Assembly (NCBI GenBank): GCA_023151185.1 | Contig: JAKLJL010000001.1 | Span: 620,001-684,000 of the forward strand | Source: Bacteroidota bacterium | GTDB lineage: Bacteria > Bacteroidota > JABWAT01 | Length of the DNA: 64,000 nt | Direction of reading: 5' to 3' | Shown here: piece by piece, positions 13,498 to 20,205 of the stretch | Position numbering within the stretch: the stretch's first letter is position 1 | Layout: each line of letters starts with the position of its first letter | Program-made: the position numbers and the translations under genes | The notes under the pieces: generated by a model | What the model was told of the DNA's origin: nothing | Database searches by the model: none | What the model saw: only the letters and a program-made list of their open reading frames with translations

Positions 13498-14271
13498 ATG
13501 GATTATGTGTTGATAGCCCTGGTGACGGTTACCGGAGCTGCTGCTACATTGGTTTCAGGATTTGGTCTGGGGACTCTGCTGATGCCGGTTTTCGGGTTGT
13601 TCTTTCCCGTCGAAACAGCCATTGCCATGACAGCCATCGTCCACTTGTCGAATAACCTGATCAAATTGGCTTTTTACCGCCGGTTTGCAGACCGGGATGT
13701 CCTGATCCGGTTTGGTATTCCTTCCATTCTGGCTGCCATAACCGGTGCCTTTTTGCTGAATCTTCTCACTGTGCTGTCTCCGGTTGCTTTCTGGTCTGCT
13801 GCCGGACACACTTTTTCAATTCTGCCGGTTAAACTGGTCATCGCCATTCTGCTGGCTGGATTTTCCTTGCTTGAACTCATCCCGGCACTTTCAAATCTGC
13901 AGTTTGACAGGAAATTCCTTCCGGTTGGCGGACTTCTCAGCGGGTTTTTCGGCGGACTTTCCGGAAATCAGGGGGCACTCCGGTCGGCCTTTCTGGTCCG
14001 GGCCGGATTAAGCAAGGAAGCGTTTATCGGGACGGGGGTTAGTATTGCCTGTCTGATTGATATTTCCCGGCTGACGGTTTATTCCGGTTCTCTCCCGAAT
14101 CAGATTTCCTGGTCAGAATTTCCCGTACTGGCTCTGGCTGTTTTTTCTGCCTTTATCGGGGTTGTCATTGGAAACCGCCTGATCAAAAAAATCACCATCC
14201 GGACGGTTCAGTTGATAGTTTCTGTTTTTCTTCTGGTCTTTTCTCTTCTGCTGGGATTGGGAATTATCTGA
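13498..14271 (+). CDS. TauE/SafE (TSUP) family permease
   Basis: A 257-residue integral membrane protein starting at ATG 13498 after GGGAGGG. The family pattern is clear: an N-terminal helix with VSGFGLGTLLMPV, a central GGLLSGFFGGLSGNQGALRS loop that mirrors it, and a final hydrophobic helix VQLIVSVFLLVFSLLLGLG. TSUP proteins move small anions such as sulfite, sulfoacetate or other organosulfur compounds; the substrate here is not indicated. The last 74 bases of the gene plus 5 bases beyond it recur almost unchanged at 15752-15830, 1.55 kb downstream (see repeats). Confidence 0.85.
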   Translation: MDYVLIALVTVTGAAATLVSGFGLGTLLMPVFGLFFPVETAIAMTAIVHLSNNLIKLAFYRRFADRDVLIRFGIPSILAAITGAFLLNLLTVLSPVAFWSAAGHTFSILPVKLVIAILLAGFSLLELIPALSNLQFDRKFLPVGGLLSGFFGGLSGNQGALRSAFLVRAGLSKEAFIGTGVSIACLIDISRLTVYSGSLPNQISWSEFPVLALAVFSAFIGVVIGNRLIKKITIRTVQLIVSVFLLVFSLLLGLGII

Positions 14272-14276
14272 TAACG
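14198..14276 (+). repeat. 79-bp repeat, parent copy (3' end of TSUP gene)
   Basis: This segment covers the last ~24 codons and stop of the TSUP gene plus five bases. It matches 15752-15830 at 77 of 79 positions by direct comparison. Confidence 0.9.
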
Positions 14277-14508
14277 GGCAAAAACCAGTCTCATCTGACA
14301 TGTTCTGACTCAATTCCATCGTTCAATCCTGAATAATCCGGTTTGGATACCGGTTCCGGAATTCTCCTTCTGCCTGATTATTCTTCATCAGATTGTGTGC
14401 CCTTGTGAATGCTCCTGCCAGGTCTGTCGCTTCTTAACTTTAGTGAACGGATTTCCGGCTGGTCGTTTCTGAAATTTGCAGGAACCATAACCTGAAGGGA
14501 CATAGAGC

Positions 14509-15204
14509 ATGAAATCCTGCCAGTTGCTTTTCATTCTGATTCTGTTTCCGCCTGCTTTTTCAGTACAGGCACAGGATAAAGTACCTGATTCAACCCGAAA
14601 GGAGTACTTTATCGGAAGCACGTTTTTTCTGCTCGGGAATCTGAGTTCAAAAAACAGGCCCGATTTTTTTCAGATCAATTTTGGCCGTCATCTGACGGAA
14701 CAGGATGCGGTTTCACTCGAACTGAAAACCTGGAAATATGCCTGGCCCCTGGGAATTCCCTACGGTTCTTCCTTTGAAGCAGCGGAGGAAAAATTTCCCG
14801 GTTACATCCGTGAGATAGGTTTTTCCCTGGTTTACCAAAGGTTTTGGTGGAAAGGACTTTATACAGGGCTTCATGTTATGAGTGCCTGGCAAACTTTTGT
14901 TTCAGGCGGGAAAAAAACCGGAGACGGGTTTCAGATTTTAAATACTTACCGGCTGGGCTATCATCTGTCGTTTTATGACGATTTCTTTTTTATAGAACCT
15001 TCACTTGCTGTAACCCACAGACCGTACCACACCCCAATGCCTGCTTCGTTTAAGGTTTTGGATGATAAATGGTCAAAGGTCTTTTGGGGAGAACCCGGTC
15101 TCCATTTCGGGTTTAATTTTCTGAAAAGTGACCTTGCATTTGCCACTCCGGATTTAGATTGGTTGTCTGATCCGGGTAAATTGCTTAAATTCCTGAAAAA
15201 ATAA
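14509..15204 (+). CDS. small secreted beta-barrel-like outer membrane protein
   Basis: A 231-residue protein with a signal peptide ending near VQAQ (residue ~22) and a good Shine-Dalgarno (GAAGGGA). The mature part is rich in aromatic residues and alternates hydrophobic and polar positions in short strands (FFQINFGRHL, VSLELKTWKYAW, IREIGFSLVYQRFWW, LHFGFNFL), as in 8-stranded outer-membrane barrels. No named family could be assigned. It precedes the UPF0303 gene by 18 bp, so the two probably share a transcript. Location in the outer membrane is inferred from pattern only. Confidence 0.6.
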   Translation: MKSCQLLFILILFPPAFSVQAQDKVPDSTRKEYFIGSTFFLLGNLSSKNRPDFFQINFGRHLTEQDAVSLELKTWKYAWPLGIPYGSSFEAAEEKFPGYIREIGFSLVYQRFWWKGLYTGLHVMSAWQTFVSGGKKTGDGFQILNTYRLGYHLSFYDDFFFIEPSLAVTHRPYHTPMPASFKVLDDKWSKVFWGEPGLHFGFNFLKSDLAFATPDLDWLSDPGKLLKFLKK

Positions 15205-15222
15205 CTGAGAAAAAGGAAGTAA

Positions 15223-15675
15223 ATGGCAGAAACTACTCAGGAAAATGTTCTGCGGCAGATTGTTTTACCGGCTTTTTCAAACCGGACTGCCTTTGAAATG
15301 GGCCAGAAAATCTGTGAACTGGCCCAAAGCAGGAATCAGAAAATTGCCGTTGAAATTGCACGGCTTACCCATCCGGTTTTTTTATTTGTGGATGATACAC
15401 TTCCGGCAGATAAGCAAAACTGGATCCGGCGGAAGGCAAATGTGGCTAAACGGTTTGAAGAAAGTTCTCTGGCGGTAAAACTCGACCTGGCAGCCGGCAA
15501 AATGACCCTTGAGAAAACCTTTGGGCTTGACGAAAAGGACTATTTGGCCAAAGGCGGATCCATTCCCGTTTTTGTCCGCCAGGCCGGGATGGTTGCTACT
15601 ATAACCGTATCCGGACTTCACGATGAAGCCGATCACCAGTTGATTCTGGATGCCCTTCGGGGAAGCTGGCTGTAA
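15223..15675 (+). CDS. UPF0303 / GlcG-HbpS-like heme-degrading-domain protein
   Basis: This 150-residue cytoplasmic protein starts at ATG 15223 after AAAGGAAG. It shows the UPF0303 layout: an N-terminal helix with AFEMGQKICELA, the KIAVEIARLTHPVFLFVDDTLPADKQNWIRRKANVAKRF region, YLAKGGSIPVFV, and a C-terminal VSGLHDEADHQLILDAL. The fold is shared with GlcG and heme-binding HbpS; some members are annotated as heme-degrading but the biochemical role is not settled. Its stop codon lies inside a 13-bp direct repeat that borders a duplicated module. Confidence 0.82.
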   Translation: MAETTQENVLRQIVLPAFSNRTAFEMGQKICELAQSRNQKIAVEIARLTHPVFLFVDDTLPADKQNWIRRKANVAKRFEESSLAVKLDLAAGKMTLEKTFGLDEKDYLAKGGSIPVFVRQAGMVATITVSGLHDEADHQLILDALRGSWL

Positions 15676-15683
15676 CCACTTTT
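15671..15683 (+). repeat. 13-bp direct repeat, left copy
   Basis: TGTAACCACTTTT, identical to 15852-15864 and 181 bp away; it includes the stop codon of the UPF0303 gene. The pair brackets the module containing the TSUP fragment. Confidence 0.75.
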
Positions 15684-15751
15684 TATTTGGACCGTACCAA
15701 CCCCATTCGCAATCTGTTCCCGAATGCCGGCAAGGGATCGGCAGGTAGCCG

Positions 15752-15830
15752 TCCGGACGGTTCAGTTGATAGTTTCTGTTTTCCTTCTGGTCTTTTCTCT
15801 TCTCCTGGGATTGGGAATTATCTGATAACG
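15752..15830 (+). pseudogene. 79-bp remnant copy of the TSUP permease 3' end
   Basis: The segment is a 77/79 match to 14198-14276, including the final codons and stop codon of the TSUP gene. In the matching frame it can be read from an ATG at 15724 as a 33-residue peptide ending in the same transmembrane helix, but upstream sequence does not match the permease. It is best seen as a recent duplicated fragment rather than a gene. Confidence 0.85.
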
Positions 15831-15851
15831 TATGACCTGAAAATATCAGGT

Positions 15852-15864
15852 TGTAACCACTTTT
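15852..15864 (+). repeat. 13-bp direct repeat, right copy
   Basis: TGTAACCACTTTT, identical to 15671-15683. Just before it, CCTGA-N5-TCAGG (15836-15850) forms a small hairpin. Confidence 0.75.
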
Positions 15865-16032
15865 CTACGGGTTCTGTGTCAGCAGTTTTTGTCTGACAAA
15901 CCCTTTTTTTTTTCAGGAAGGGATTCTGGTCTTGACAACCGTAAAAGACCGGAACCAATTCCTGTTGCATGGCTTAAAAAGAGAAAAGGATACCCATGAA
16001 TTTTTTTGCTATCTTTAATAGAAAATGAACGC

Positions 16033-16056
16033 ATCAGGCATATTCTGGTGCCTGAT
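16033..16056 (+). repeat. 8-bp perfect hairpin in the leader of the CBM protein
   Basis: ATCAGGCA (16033-16040), loop of 8, TGCCTGAT (16049-16056). It lies about 190 nt before the start codon at 16246 and could be a regulatory leader structure or an operator. Confidence 0.4.
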
Positions 16057-16245
16057 TCCTGGTGGTGTTTGGGTTCTTTCGTGGCAGGTCACTGAGCTTA
16101 GGGTGAATTCAGGAACCTTAACTTCCCCCGGGCAGTCGGTTTGCCTTGCTGAATTACCTTTAGTTTAATTAATCGCTTGGGATTTCAGTCCGGTAATGAT
16201 CACCCCGAATCGCAATCAACACCAAACAACTCATGGAGAAAAAAC

Positions 16246-18897
16246 ATGAAACGACTGCTTACGACGCTGTTCATACTGACTGCGATGGTCAGTCTGGCTT
16301 CTGCTCAATGGGCCTGGGCCCCGCTGAACACAGGTCAGGGAAGGGATGAAGCCTACGTACCGTCCGTGACTAATATCGGTGTTTTTACAAACGGATCAAC
16401 TGCTTTCTGTACCATTAAAGATACCACTGAATCCAAAGACGGAAAAGGTGCATTTAAAGTTAAATACCGTGTAGAAGCCGGCGACGGATGGGGCGGTTAT
16501 GTGGTCCGGGTTCACTTCAACGATCTTGGTAAAATGGGGAAAGCCGGATATTATGATCTTCAGGCTGGTAAATATATCAGCTTCTGGATAAAAAACACGG
16601 TTAAACCGACTAAAACGCAGGCAGGCGATGTTAATTTTGAATTTAAAATTAAGGAAAAAGGCCTGACTGACAGTGGTGAAGACCGCTGGGTAAAGAAAAT
16701 GGGAACCATTCTGGAAACAACTCCGGACGAATGGACCCAGTTTACCATTCCTCTGGAAGGTTCCGAGTGGAGCCGCCAGGCCGGGGAAGCTGATGGTGAA
16801 TTTACTCCATGGCAAACTTTTGGGTGGGAACTTGCTGTCGTCTATATAACCGATGGCGGAAGTTCCTCTATTGCTGCTGAGGGTGAATTTATCTTCGACA
16901 ACATTCAGATTCTGGATCAACGGTTTACTCCGGTTATGTCTTTCGACAACCAATCTGACACCACATCCAACCGTTCCCGTAAAGATGCAACCTGGCTGCT
17001 CAATGATATGTACTGGGATGGTGCTGCCGGTGCCCGCAAAATGGTTCTTTCCAACGAAACTGTTGATACGGTTGAAGGTCTCGGTGCCATGAAGGCTGAA
17101 TATGCCATCGTGGGTTCACAGGACTGGGGTGGATATGCTGAACTGGAACATGTTTTTGAAACTCCGGTTGATCTTTCCACCAATTCCGGTTTTGCTCTTT
17201 ATGTTAAAACTCTGGTTGCCAATCAATTAACCGGCCGGTTTATGCTTCGTCTGGATGTTACCGATGAAGTTGGCGGTGCACAGGAAATGTGGACAACCGT
17301 CATTAATGCTGATGTCGATCACGTTACCGACTGGCAATATGTTCAAATGCCGTTCGAATTAACCGATACCGCCTGGACCAATCTGAAACCCGGTTACACT
17401 GGTTTCACCAAACGGGAAGGTAATAACAACGGAATATTCGATCTGGACAAAATCAAAAAACTCCGGATAGGGTTTATTGTCCTTCGCAGAGCCGGTGAAC
17501 CCTTTGGTCCTAACGTAATCGCCAGCGGAACCCTTCTGTTTGACCTCTGGACACCAACCGGATTCAGAGATACCGATTGTAAATCTCCGGATCCTGTCCA
17601 GGATGTTCTGGGTCTTGCAATTGAAGATGGCAAGAACTCTATCGTCTGGACTGATAATTCCGGCGAAGAAAATGAAAAATACAATGTGTATTACAGCTAT
17701 GAACCCATGACTGAAAATACTGATCTGACCGGTGAGGGTGTATTTGTTCTTGCATCTGGTATCGGGGAATCAATTGGTTCAGCCAGTCACGTGTTCTACA
17801 GTCCGCTGTATCCTGCTACCTTCAGACATTACTATGCTGTTAACTGCGTTGACAAATCCGGAAACGCAGGAAAACCTGGTGTTGCTCCGGATCCGGTTAG
17901 TAGTGTTTCCAGGGTTGCCCCTCTTGTCAGTGATATCGCACCGGCTAACTTTGCCGCCGATGGCGACCTGTCTGACTGGGCTTCCATTCCCGGCTGGACA
18001 CTGAAGATTTCTGATGGCTCCGCTACCGAAATCAATCCGTCCTCCTGGGATATTTCGGATGACAACGATGCTTCCATGGAAGCCAAAGTTGCACTGGCAG
18101 ATGGTAACCTTTATGTTGCCATGAAAGTAACCGACGACATCTATTTCGTTGATGCTACCAAGGCTTCCTATGTACAGGATGCTCCAGATTTGTTTATCGG
18201 TCTGTACAAATACCGCGGCAAGAACCATGTTAGATACAAAAGAGGTGAAACACCTGATTACCACTTCAGGTTTAACTTTGATAAAGTGACCAACGACCTG
18301 AACGGTGCAACCGTTGCCGTACCCGGTGACAATTATAAATGGCTTCAAACTGCTGCCGGATACACTCTGGAATGGAAAATGCCGATTGCTGATATACTGG
18401 CCCTCTATGCCGGTGATGTTGCCACTTATGAAGTGGCTGATATGATTCCGCTTGACTTTCTCCTGAACGATTCCGATGAAGCCGGTGTCCGTTCCGGCGG
18501 TCTGCGCTGGTCAGCCAGTACCGAAGATAACGGATGGAACAATGTGACTTCCTGGGCTTATACCTTTATTGGCAATAATGCGACAAATTTCGGATTTCAC
18601 TGTTGGGCCAATATTGAAAACGGTTCTGCACCGGTAGAATTTGCTCTGAACCAAAACTATCCGAACCCCTTCAACCCTGCTACCACGATTCCTTTCAGCG
18701 TAAAGGTAAGCGGTACTGTTTCTCTGAAGGTTTACAACGTTCTGGGTGCTGAAGTTGCAACCCTGTTCAACGGATACAAAGAAGCCGGCAAACATGTTCA
18801 GTCTTTCGATGCTTCCAGTCTGTCCAGCGGTGTTTACTTCGTCCGCATGAATGCAACCGGATATACGTCTGTCATCAAAATGATGTACCTGAAGTAA
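16246..18897 (+). CDS. large secreted multidomain carbohydrate-binding protein with sorting domain
   Basis: ATG 16246 follows GGAG and begins a textbook signal peptide ending ASAQ, so the in-frame upstream extension is rejected. The 883-residue protein has two tandem jelly-roll-like modules (~25-235 and ~240-450, each with a WGGY core after a long acidic strand), an FnIII-like domain (~465-565, KYNVYYSYEP), and a CBM9-like domain (~575-790, DGDLSDWASIPG and LEWKMPIADI). The C-terminal sorting domain opens with YPNPFNPATT and ends in MYLK. No catalytic residues are apparent. It probably binds polysaccharide at the cell surface. It ends with a strong hairpin and has a long leader, so it is likely its own transcription unit. 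The ligand is unknown. Confidence 0.8.
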   Translation: MKRLLTTLFILTAMVSLASAQWAWAPLNTGQGRDEAYVPSVTNIGVFTNGSTAFCTIKDTTESKDGKGAFKVKYRVEAGDGWGGYVVRVHFNDLGKMGKAGYYDLQAGKYISFWIKNTVKPTKTQAGDVNFEFKIKEKGLTDSGEDRWVKKMGTILETTPDEWTQFTIPLEGSEWSRQAGEADGEFTPWQTFGWELAVVYITDGGSSSIAAEGEFIFDNIQILDQRFTPVMSFDNQSDTTSNRSRKDATWLLNDMYWDGAAGARKMVLSNETVDTVEGLGAMKAEYAIVGSQDWGGYAELEHVFETPVDLSTNSGFALYVKTLVANQLTGRFMLRLDVTDEVGGAQEMWTTVINADVDHVTDWQYVQMPFELTDTAWTNLKPGYTGFTKREGNNNGIFDLDKIKKLRIGFIVLRRAGEPFGPNVIASGTLLFDLWTPTGFRDTDCKSPDPVQDVLGLAIEDGKNSIVWTDNSGEENEKYNVYYSYEPMTENTDLTGEGVFVLASGIGESIGSASHVFYSPLYPATFRHYYAVNCVDKSGNAGKPGVAPDPVSSVSRVAPLVSDIAPANFAADGDLSDWASIPGWTLKISDGSATEINPSSWDISDDNDASMEAKVALADGNLYVAMKVTDDIYFVDATKASYVQDAPDLFIGLYKYRGKNHVRYKRGETPDYHFRFNFDKVTNDLNGATVAVPGDNYKWLQTAAGYTLEWKMPIADILALYAGDVATYEVADMIPLDFLLNDSDEAGVRSGGLRWSASTEDNGWNNVTSWAYTFIGNNATNFGFHCWANIENGSAPVEFALNQNYPNPFNPATTIPFSVKVSGTVSLKVYNVLGAEVATLFNGYKEAGKHVQSFDASSLSSGVYFVRMNATGYTSVIKMMYLK

Positions 18898-18910
18898 TTC
18901 TGACCTCTTT

Positions 18911-18940
18911 TCAGCCGCCTGCAGGTCTGCAGGCGGCTGA
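18911..18940 (+). terminator. 14-bp perfect hairpin after the CBM protein
   Basis: TCAGCCGCCTGCAG (18911-18924), two bases, CTGCAGGCGGCTGA (18927-18940), 13 nt past the stop. The T content after it is modest (TCTGTTCCTCC), but the stem is very stable and the position fits a transcript end. Confidence 0.6.
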
Positions 18941-18972
18941 TCTGTTCCTCCAACCTGACCTGTGAAGTCAAC

Positions 18973-20205
18973 ATGAAAAAAAGTCCAGTGCTGTTTACCT
19001 GCATTTTTGCCCTGGCAGGTTTGGTCAATGCCTCGAATTCAGGGAAAATTACCGGATCAGGATCCAGCCAAAACGATTTTCATAAACCGCCCCGGATCAT
19101 CTGGACTTTTTCTTCGGATACTTCCTTTTTCGCATCGCCGGTGACGGAAGCCGGAGTTGTCTTCGCCGGAAGTCTGGATAGCTGCCTGTATGCTGTGGAC
19201 CTTGAATCGGGAACTGAACGTTGGCGGTTTAAAACACAGGGAAAGATCCGGTCACAGGTTTTGGTAAACGGAAACCGGTTATTCCTGAATGGCGGCGATG
19301 GCGTGATTTATTGTCTGGCACCCGCCACGGGAAAACTCCTCTGGAAATTCCGGACCGAAGGTGAAAAACACTATGATTTTGCAGATTACTTTCACTCATC
19401 TCCTGTGATTCAGGACGGCGTTGTCTATGTCGGATCAGGGGATTCCCATGTTTATGCACTGGATCCGGAAACGGGTCTGCTAATCTGGAAATTCCGTACC
19501 GGCGGCATCGTTCACAGCACTCCGGCCATAGAGAAAGGGACGGTTTTTTTCGGATCATTCGATGGATATGTATATGCCGTGGATGCCCGGTCCGGGCAGA
19601 TGAAATGGAAGTTTAAAACGGTGGGGCACCGGTACTTTCCCGCAGGAGAAGTTCAGGGATCACCCGTGCTGTTTGACGGAAAGGTGTTCATTGGTGCACG
19701 GGATTACAATGTGTATGCACTGGATCAGAAAAAAGGATTTTGCCACTGGAACAAGGCGTTTCAGAACGGTTGGGGATTAAGTACGGCCATTCTGGATTCA
19801 GTTTTATACATCGGGACGGCCGATGAACGGTGTCTGATTTCGGCTGATCCGGCGACCGGCGCAGAAGACTGGCGGATTAAAATGGAATTCCTGGTGTTCG
19901 GGCAGCCGGCAGAAACTGATAGCCTGGTTTACTCTGGGACTACCATCGGGAAAGTTCATGCCATCTCCAAAAAAACCGGTCAGAAAGTCTGGAGTTTTGA
20001 AACTGAAAGTTACCAGAAATACCGGTCCTCCTATTTCAAATCTGATGATTCTTACCGGGACGATATTTATTCCATTATCCATTCCAATGAGCATTTTCTC
20101 CAGGTTGAATGCCAGTTAGGTGGCATTTTCACAACACCTGTCATTACCGGTGACTACCTGTTGGTTACCTCAGCTAACGGTAAATTATATTGTCTGAAAC
20201 GGTAG
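18973..20205 (+). CDS. secreted PQQ-type (BamB-like) beta-propeller protein
   Basis: A 410-residue protein with a signal peptide (~1-20). It is built of repeats that each contain a YAVD/YALD strand followed by a W(R/K)F(K/R)T blade end: CLYAVDLESGTERWRFKT, HVYALDPETGLLIWKFRT, YVYAVDARSGQMKWKFKT, NVYALDQKKGFCHWNK, and later ones. This is the PQQ-enzyme repeat propeller, about seven to eight blades. The catalytic residues of quinoprotein dehydrogenases are not evident, so a scaffold or binding role as in BamB-like proteins is more likely. It has no clear partner; it follows a terminator-like hairpin. Confidence 0.83.
   Translation: MKKSPVLFTCIFALAGLVNASNSGKITGSGSSQNDFHKPPRIIWTFSSDTSFFASPVTEAGVVFAGSLDSCLYAVDLESGTERWRFKTQGKIRSQVLVNGNRLFLNGGDGVIYCLAPATGKLLWKFRTEGEKHYDFADYFHSSPVIQDGVVYVGSGDSHVYALDPETGLLIWKFRTGGIVHSTPAIEKGTVFFGSFDGYVYAVDARSGQMKWKFKTVGHRYFPAGEVQGSPVLFDGKVFIGARDYNVYALDQKKGFCHWNKAFQNGWGLSTAILDSVLYIGTADERCLISADPATGAEDWRIKMEFLVFGQPAETDSLVYSGTTIGKVHAISKKTGQKVWSFETESYQKYRSSYFKSDDSYRDDIYSIIHSNEHFLQVECQLGGIFTTPVITGDYLLVTSANGKLYCLKR

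Follow-up and report, generated by a model that had tools for sequence, protein, structure and literature searches.

Complex junctions in Escherichia coli carry inserted nearby sequence, and template switching is the explanation favoured in the account given of them (PMC3161906). In a comparison of bacterial strains, most small variable segments were attributed to illegitimate recombination, and 10-18% of these microdiversity segments are described there as flanked by direct repeats, mostly shorter than 30 bp (PMC2884548). Duplication of a gene 3' end is described for prophage e14 at icd, where near-identical copies flank a block of genes (PMC6379469).

The locus described here lies in a window of 64,000 nucleotides (the whole stretch of DNA that was analysed) from a Bacteroidota bacterium, in which a copy of the tail of a TSUP permease gene sits downstream of an HbpS-like gene, about 1.5 kb from the original (Table 1). 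Like the template-switch or MMBIR junctions of E. coli, the locus contains inserted nearby sequence and short junction repeats. However, the E. coli junctions are presented as newly arisen in a selection assay, whereas here the event is reconstructed from one genome and the insert is partly without a known source (PMC3161906). The module also resembles the microdiversity segments in being small and flanked by direct repeats, although those segments are defined, as reported, by strain comparison and the module is known from one genome (PMC2884548). With e14, as that prophage is described, the locus shares a duplicated gene 3' end whose near-identical copies flank a gene block, but the present block is 1.55 kb long with two genes and no integrase, and an extra 13-bp repeat straddles the distal copy only (PMC6379469). 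The module is probably a neutral scar of local illegitimate recombination or template switching in the 3' untranslated region of the HbpS gene.

Table 1. Features of the TSUP-HbpS locus (positions in the window)
Feature	Position	Strand	Basis or remark
TSUP (TauE/SafE-like) permease gene, source of duplicated tail	13498..14271	+	ORF; Pfam PF01925, E 1.5e-18
Original copy of 82-nt tail (last codons, TGA TAA, CG)	14195..14276	+	Repeat comparison, self-BLAST
Gene for 231-aa protein between TSUP and HbpS, possibly an outer-membrane protein	14509..15204	+	ORF; without Pfam match
HbpS-like gene, 150 aa, stop codon in first 13-mer	15223..15675	+	Pfam PF03928, E 1.4e-22
First copy of TGTAACCACTTTT	15671..15683	+	Exact pattern search; holds HbpS stop codon
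65-bp filler	15684..15748	+	15690-15705 resembles 15020-15036 at 16/17 aligned columns
Second copy of TSUP tail, 79/82	15749..15830	+	Repeat comparison, self-BLAST, own-genome search
21-bp filler, hairpin reaching into second 13-mer	15831..15851	+	Fold 15820-15870: -10.7 kcal/mol, z -2.17
Second copy of TGTAACCACTTTT	15852..15864	+	Exact pattern search
Strong intrinsic terminator, GGGTT..TGTCAG/CTGACAAACCC then T10	15869..15913	+	Fold vs shuffles; read as original HbpS terminator

The two copies of the TSUP tail are identical at 79 of 82 positions. An earlier note on this DNA, made from the sequence alone, had reported that 15752-15830 matches the TSUP end at 77 of 79 positions, and this is the case. 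Its description of the match as running through the stop and five following bases is accurate when counted from the first stop codon (end 14271), but the gene ends TGA TAA and the match reaches only two bases (14275-14276) past the second stop. Two of the differences lie inside the 79 bp (14229, T/C; 14250, G/C) and are synonymous in the TSUP frame (TTT/TTC and CTG/CTC); the third (14197, A/G) lies just outside and changes I to V. Of the 225 single changes possible in this frame, 65 are synonymous. That both differences are synonymous is mildly unexpected for a decaying copy and counts against a scar to that extent, although changes in the working TSUP gene would produce the same outcome. Near-identical local duplications are rare in this genome region: a self-comparison of the surrounding 464 kb (identity at least 85%, E 1e-6) gave 17 aligned pairs, one of which is the TSUP-tail pair.

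The 13-mers that flank the copied tail are exact and 181 bp apart, as the earlier note had stated, and the genome-wide searches that it proposed found both the module and the repeat to be confined to this locus. The 181-bp module is a single copy, matching its own genome at two places only, itself and the TSUP tail (the second at E 1.9e-32), and the two 13-mers are the only exact copies of TGTAACCACTTTT in the 3.74-Mb genome. When one mismatch was allowed, the 13-mer had seven genome places in all and a reversed control pattern had 12. The pair extends to 15 of 16 positions (15668-15683 and 15849-15864), with a mismatch (CTG/TTG) that, read in the HbpS frame, would leave the amino acid unchanged. 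As a measure of chance, 200,000 random 82-bp blocks were drawn from the 464-kb stretch; an exact 13-mer was common to the two 100-bp flanks of 421 of them (0.2%), with gene-internal repeats included in the count.

The hairpin downstream of the module is terminator-like (15860-15915: -14.3 kcal/mol, z -3.92, none of 200 shuffles folding as well), and the terminator at 15869-15913 is absent from the list given by a simple consensus terminator scan. It begins four bases past the second 13-mer. Removal of the insert and one 13-mer leaves the HbpS gene, its stop codon, 12 nt and the terminator stem, and the distance from the HbpS stop to the T-run, at present 229 nt, becomes 48 nt once the 13-mers are joined. 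A fold-based count in the 464 kb gave 93 terminator-like sites, 34 of them at most 600 nt after an ORF end, and among these 34 the commonest stop-to-T-run distance was 25-49 nt (14 sites). An insertion that separated the gene from its terminator is supported mainly by this shift, from 48 nt in the joined site to 229 nt now.

The 168-bp insert consists of the 65-bp filler, the 82-nt TSUP tail and the 21-bp filler, and templates account for 82 of the 168 bp. The two fillers are largely left without a template, a point against a copying scar. There is a suggestive resemblance between 15690-15705 and the 231-aa gene (15020-15036), from which this patch may have been copied. Of 1000 dinucleotide shuffles, 9 scored at least as high as the patch against 14277-15667, as did 2 of 330 equal segments elsewhere; the patch emerged after several pieces had been tried, and an earlier composition-only shuffle with a larger target gave a weaker result (shuffle maximum of 29 in 40 shuffles, against 27 observed). 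The rest of the 65-bp filler had no source in the 21 genomes searched at E up to 10, and the best match to the 21-bp hairpin filler was at the level of chance, 145 of 1000 shuffles being as good. An origin of the filler in guaB was considered because of a 28-nt match in the IMP dehydrogenase gene of one of the 21 genomes (G011, E 6.2e-4). It was dropped since the bacterium's own IMPDH gene was not among the own-genome matches and since other filler matches fell in unrelated genes, for example that of an Obg-type GTPase (the IMPDH and Obg-type GTPase genes were identified by eye from the translation).

The earlier note had offered the module as an insertion or recombination product without a transposase nearby, and also as a small mobile or regulatory piece carrying a transcript end. 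The first description is supported by the 13-bp flanking duplication and by the reconstructed site, in which HbpS ends normally and a terminator follows. A mobile piece is not supported, given the single copy and the distribution of the module: among 198 genomes of the phylum it was found in its own alone and in none of the other 197 (four candidates per genome were scored). Phage and plasmid records gave zero matches at E 1, and viral contigs gave zero matches to an exact 22-mer of the filler. Eighteen inverted pairs of at least 12 nt were found, none of which bounds the insert, and a Pfam scan of 47 of the 50 window ORFs gave zero integrases, transposases or recombinases. An integron attC site was looked for by eye only, and its core motifs were not recognised. 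The regulatory description fared no better: the TSUP tail (14260-14330) folds no better than shuffles, the fold of the whole module is not exceptional (z -0.84), and Rfam gave zero matches to the module at E 1. The only ORF in the module is TTG-initiated and encodes 69 aa (15687-15896). The sequence gives no sign that the module is either mobile or regulatory.

The scheme that follows is inferred, in its sequence of steps as in its mechanism, and so is the absence of a function. The ancestral site, reconstructed from one genome, would have read HbpS stop, CCACTTTT, CTAC and terminator. The nascent strand, in the course of replication or break repair, would have quit its template right after TGTAACCACTTTT and would then have copied the TSUP tail 1.5 kb upstream, the step that is taken as certain within this scheme. 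The 16-nt patch of the 231-aa gene would be a possible further template in between, the rest being filler, and synthesis would have resumed 13 bp upstream of the departure point. The net gain between HbpS and the terminator would be 168 bp plus the 13-bp duplication. Strand and gene order are as in the source region for both fragments, the TSUP tail preceding the HbpS end, and the direct orientation, the local template, the 13-bp overlap at the return and the filler together fit a template-switch or break-repair event. In a variant of this scheme, the 1.5-kb block from the TSUP tail to HbpS would have been duplicated directly in tandem and most of the second copy then deleted. The variant accounts equally well for the order of the fragments and for the longer match around the 13-mer (15 of 16 positions) with its HbpS-synonymous change.

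The 1,554 bp between the TSUP tails (14277-15830) could alternatively be a two-gene island without an integrase, inserted site-specifically in the TSUP 3' end. By analogy with e14 in icd, the element would have brought a replacement tail and displaced the old tail to the far end. Direct repeats of the TSUP 3' end do flank a gene block, the differences inside the 79 bp leave the protein unchanged, and e14 is described as giving a duplicated icd' of 163 bp in the same way (PMC6379469). The distribution of HbpS also favours an island: of 60 genomes searched, only its own has the gene, the 59 others, both congeners among them, being without it, and the closest named relatives come from the Flavobacteriales (a Flavobacteriales bacterium, 61%; Aureivirga, 59%) in one scan that reached close relatives only. 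The neighbours of HbpS in two named relatives, judged by eye, had none in common with the window. The joined-site distance is also compatible with an island because 79 nt separate the T-run from the distal TSUP stop, a plausible spacing for a terminator. However, the 47 of 50 window ORFs scanned include no integrase, the own-genome search showed neither a further copy nor another place where this tail serves as a site, and an island leaves the unique pair of 13-mers (0.2% by chance) unexplained. Paralogs of the 231-aa gene occur both in the same genome and in a congener, so this gene is not foreign. An island is therefore unlikely, and a 1.55-kb cassette (the 231-aa and HbpS-like genes) that inserts at and restores the TSUP 3' end through a recombinase supplied in trans from elsewhere is a still more doubtful form of it.

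The earlier note had also suggested the scar of a lost second permease, that is, a remnant of a mostly deleted second TSUP gene downstream of HbpS. Two working copies would be expected to differ synonymously, as the 79 bp do at both positions. This reading is nevertheless improbable: only 82 nt remain, the 65-bp filler contains no upstream TSUP sequence, neither the 13-mer nor the position is explained, and each congener has one TSUP match and no second. A flanking direct repeat of plausible target-duplication length would suit a MITE-like transposable element of 168 bp that had captured the TSUP tail and made a 13-bp target duplication, but the lack of a terminal inverted repeat of at least 12 nt and of matches in phages, plasmids and 197 genomes of the phylum makes this very improbable, and the single-copy status largely refutes it. 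An assembly error is conceivable in a draft genome of 27 contigs and has a similarly slight chance of being right, given that the copies are not identical (3 differences in 82 positions) and that the locus lies inside a 992-kb contig with unique flanks.

The comparison with relatives covered two congeners (G001 and G002) and a third genome (G003), from the same family. Each congener has one TSUP gene (51-52% identity), and zero other window ORFs of at least 120 aa were matched in the 18 kb around it; the congeners have no HbpS gene and no synteny to the window at the places examined. The paralogs of the 231-aa gene (38-57% identity) occur as adjacent pairs, both in its own genome (C1) and in that of a congener (C18). 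Other duplications were observed downstream of the module. Window positions 16003-19056 contain an 89%-identical copy of G000:C11:592199-595084, which includes the gene of a CBM9 and secretion-tail protein (alignment of 2,895 bp). The part that precedes the CBM9-type copy (16003-16159) matches 591814-591973 at 77.5%; the latter reads as the end of a sodium:solute-symporter-like gene (identified by eye), the window counterpart looks decayed, and about 225 bp are missing between window positions 16159 and 16168. The first 28-29 codons of a PQQ-type beta-propeller gene (window 18973-19056) match elsewhere at 83-86%, and these matches fall just downstream of CBM9-gene paralogs in the same genome and in a congener. 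The leader of the PQQ-type gene thus seems to have been duplicated along with the upstream CBM9 gene. Clustered short repeats (53-64 bp, 86-100% identity, in both orientations) were also seen at G000:C11:467476-488598 and are possibly a dispersed small repeat family.

If the module is a scar, as preferred here, it would be an ordinary and well-preserved case of gene fragments copied into intergenic DNA, and such copying can increase the distance between a gene and its terminator. If an island were instead correct, the element would be non-autonomous and very small, with a protein-coding gene as its site. Either reading advises caution in calling fragments of gene tails mobile or regulatory without a comparison of strains.
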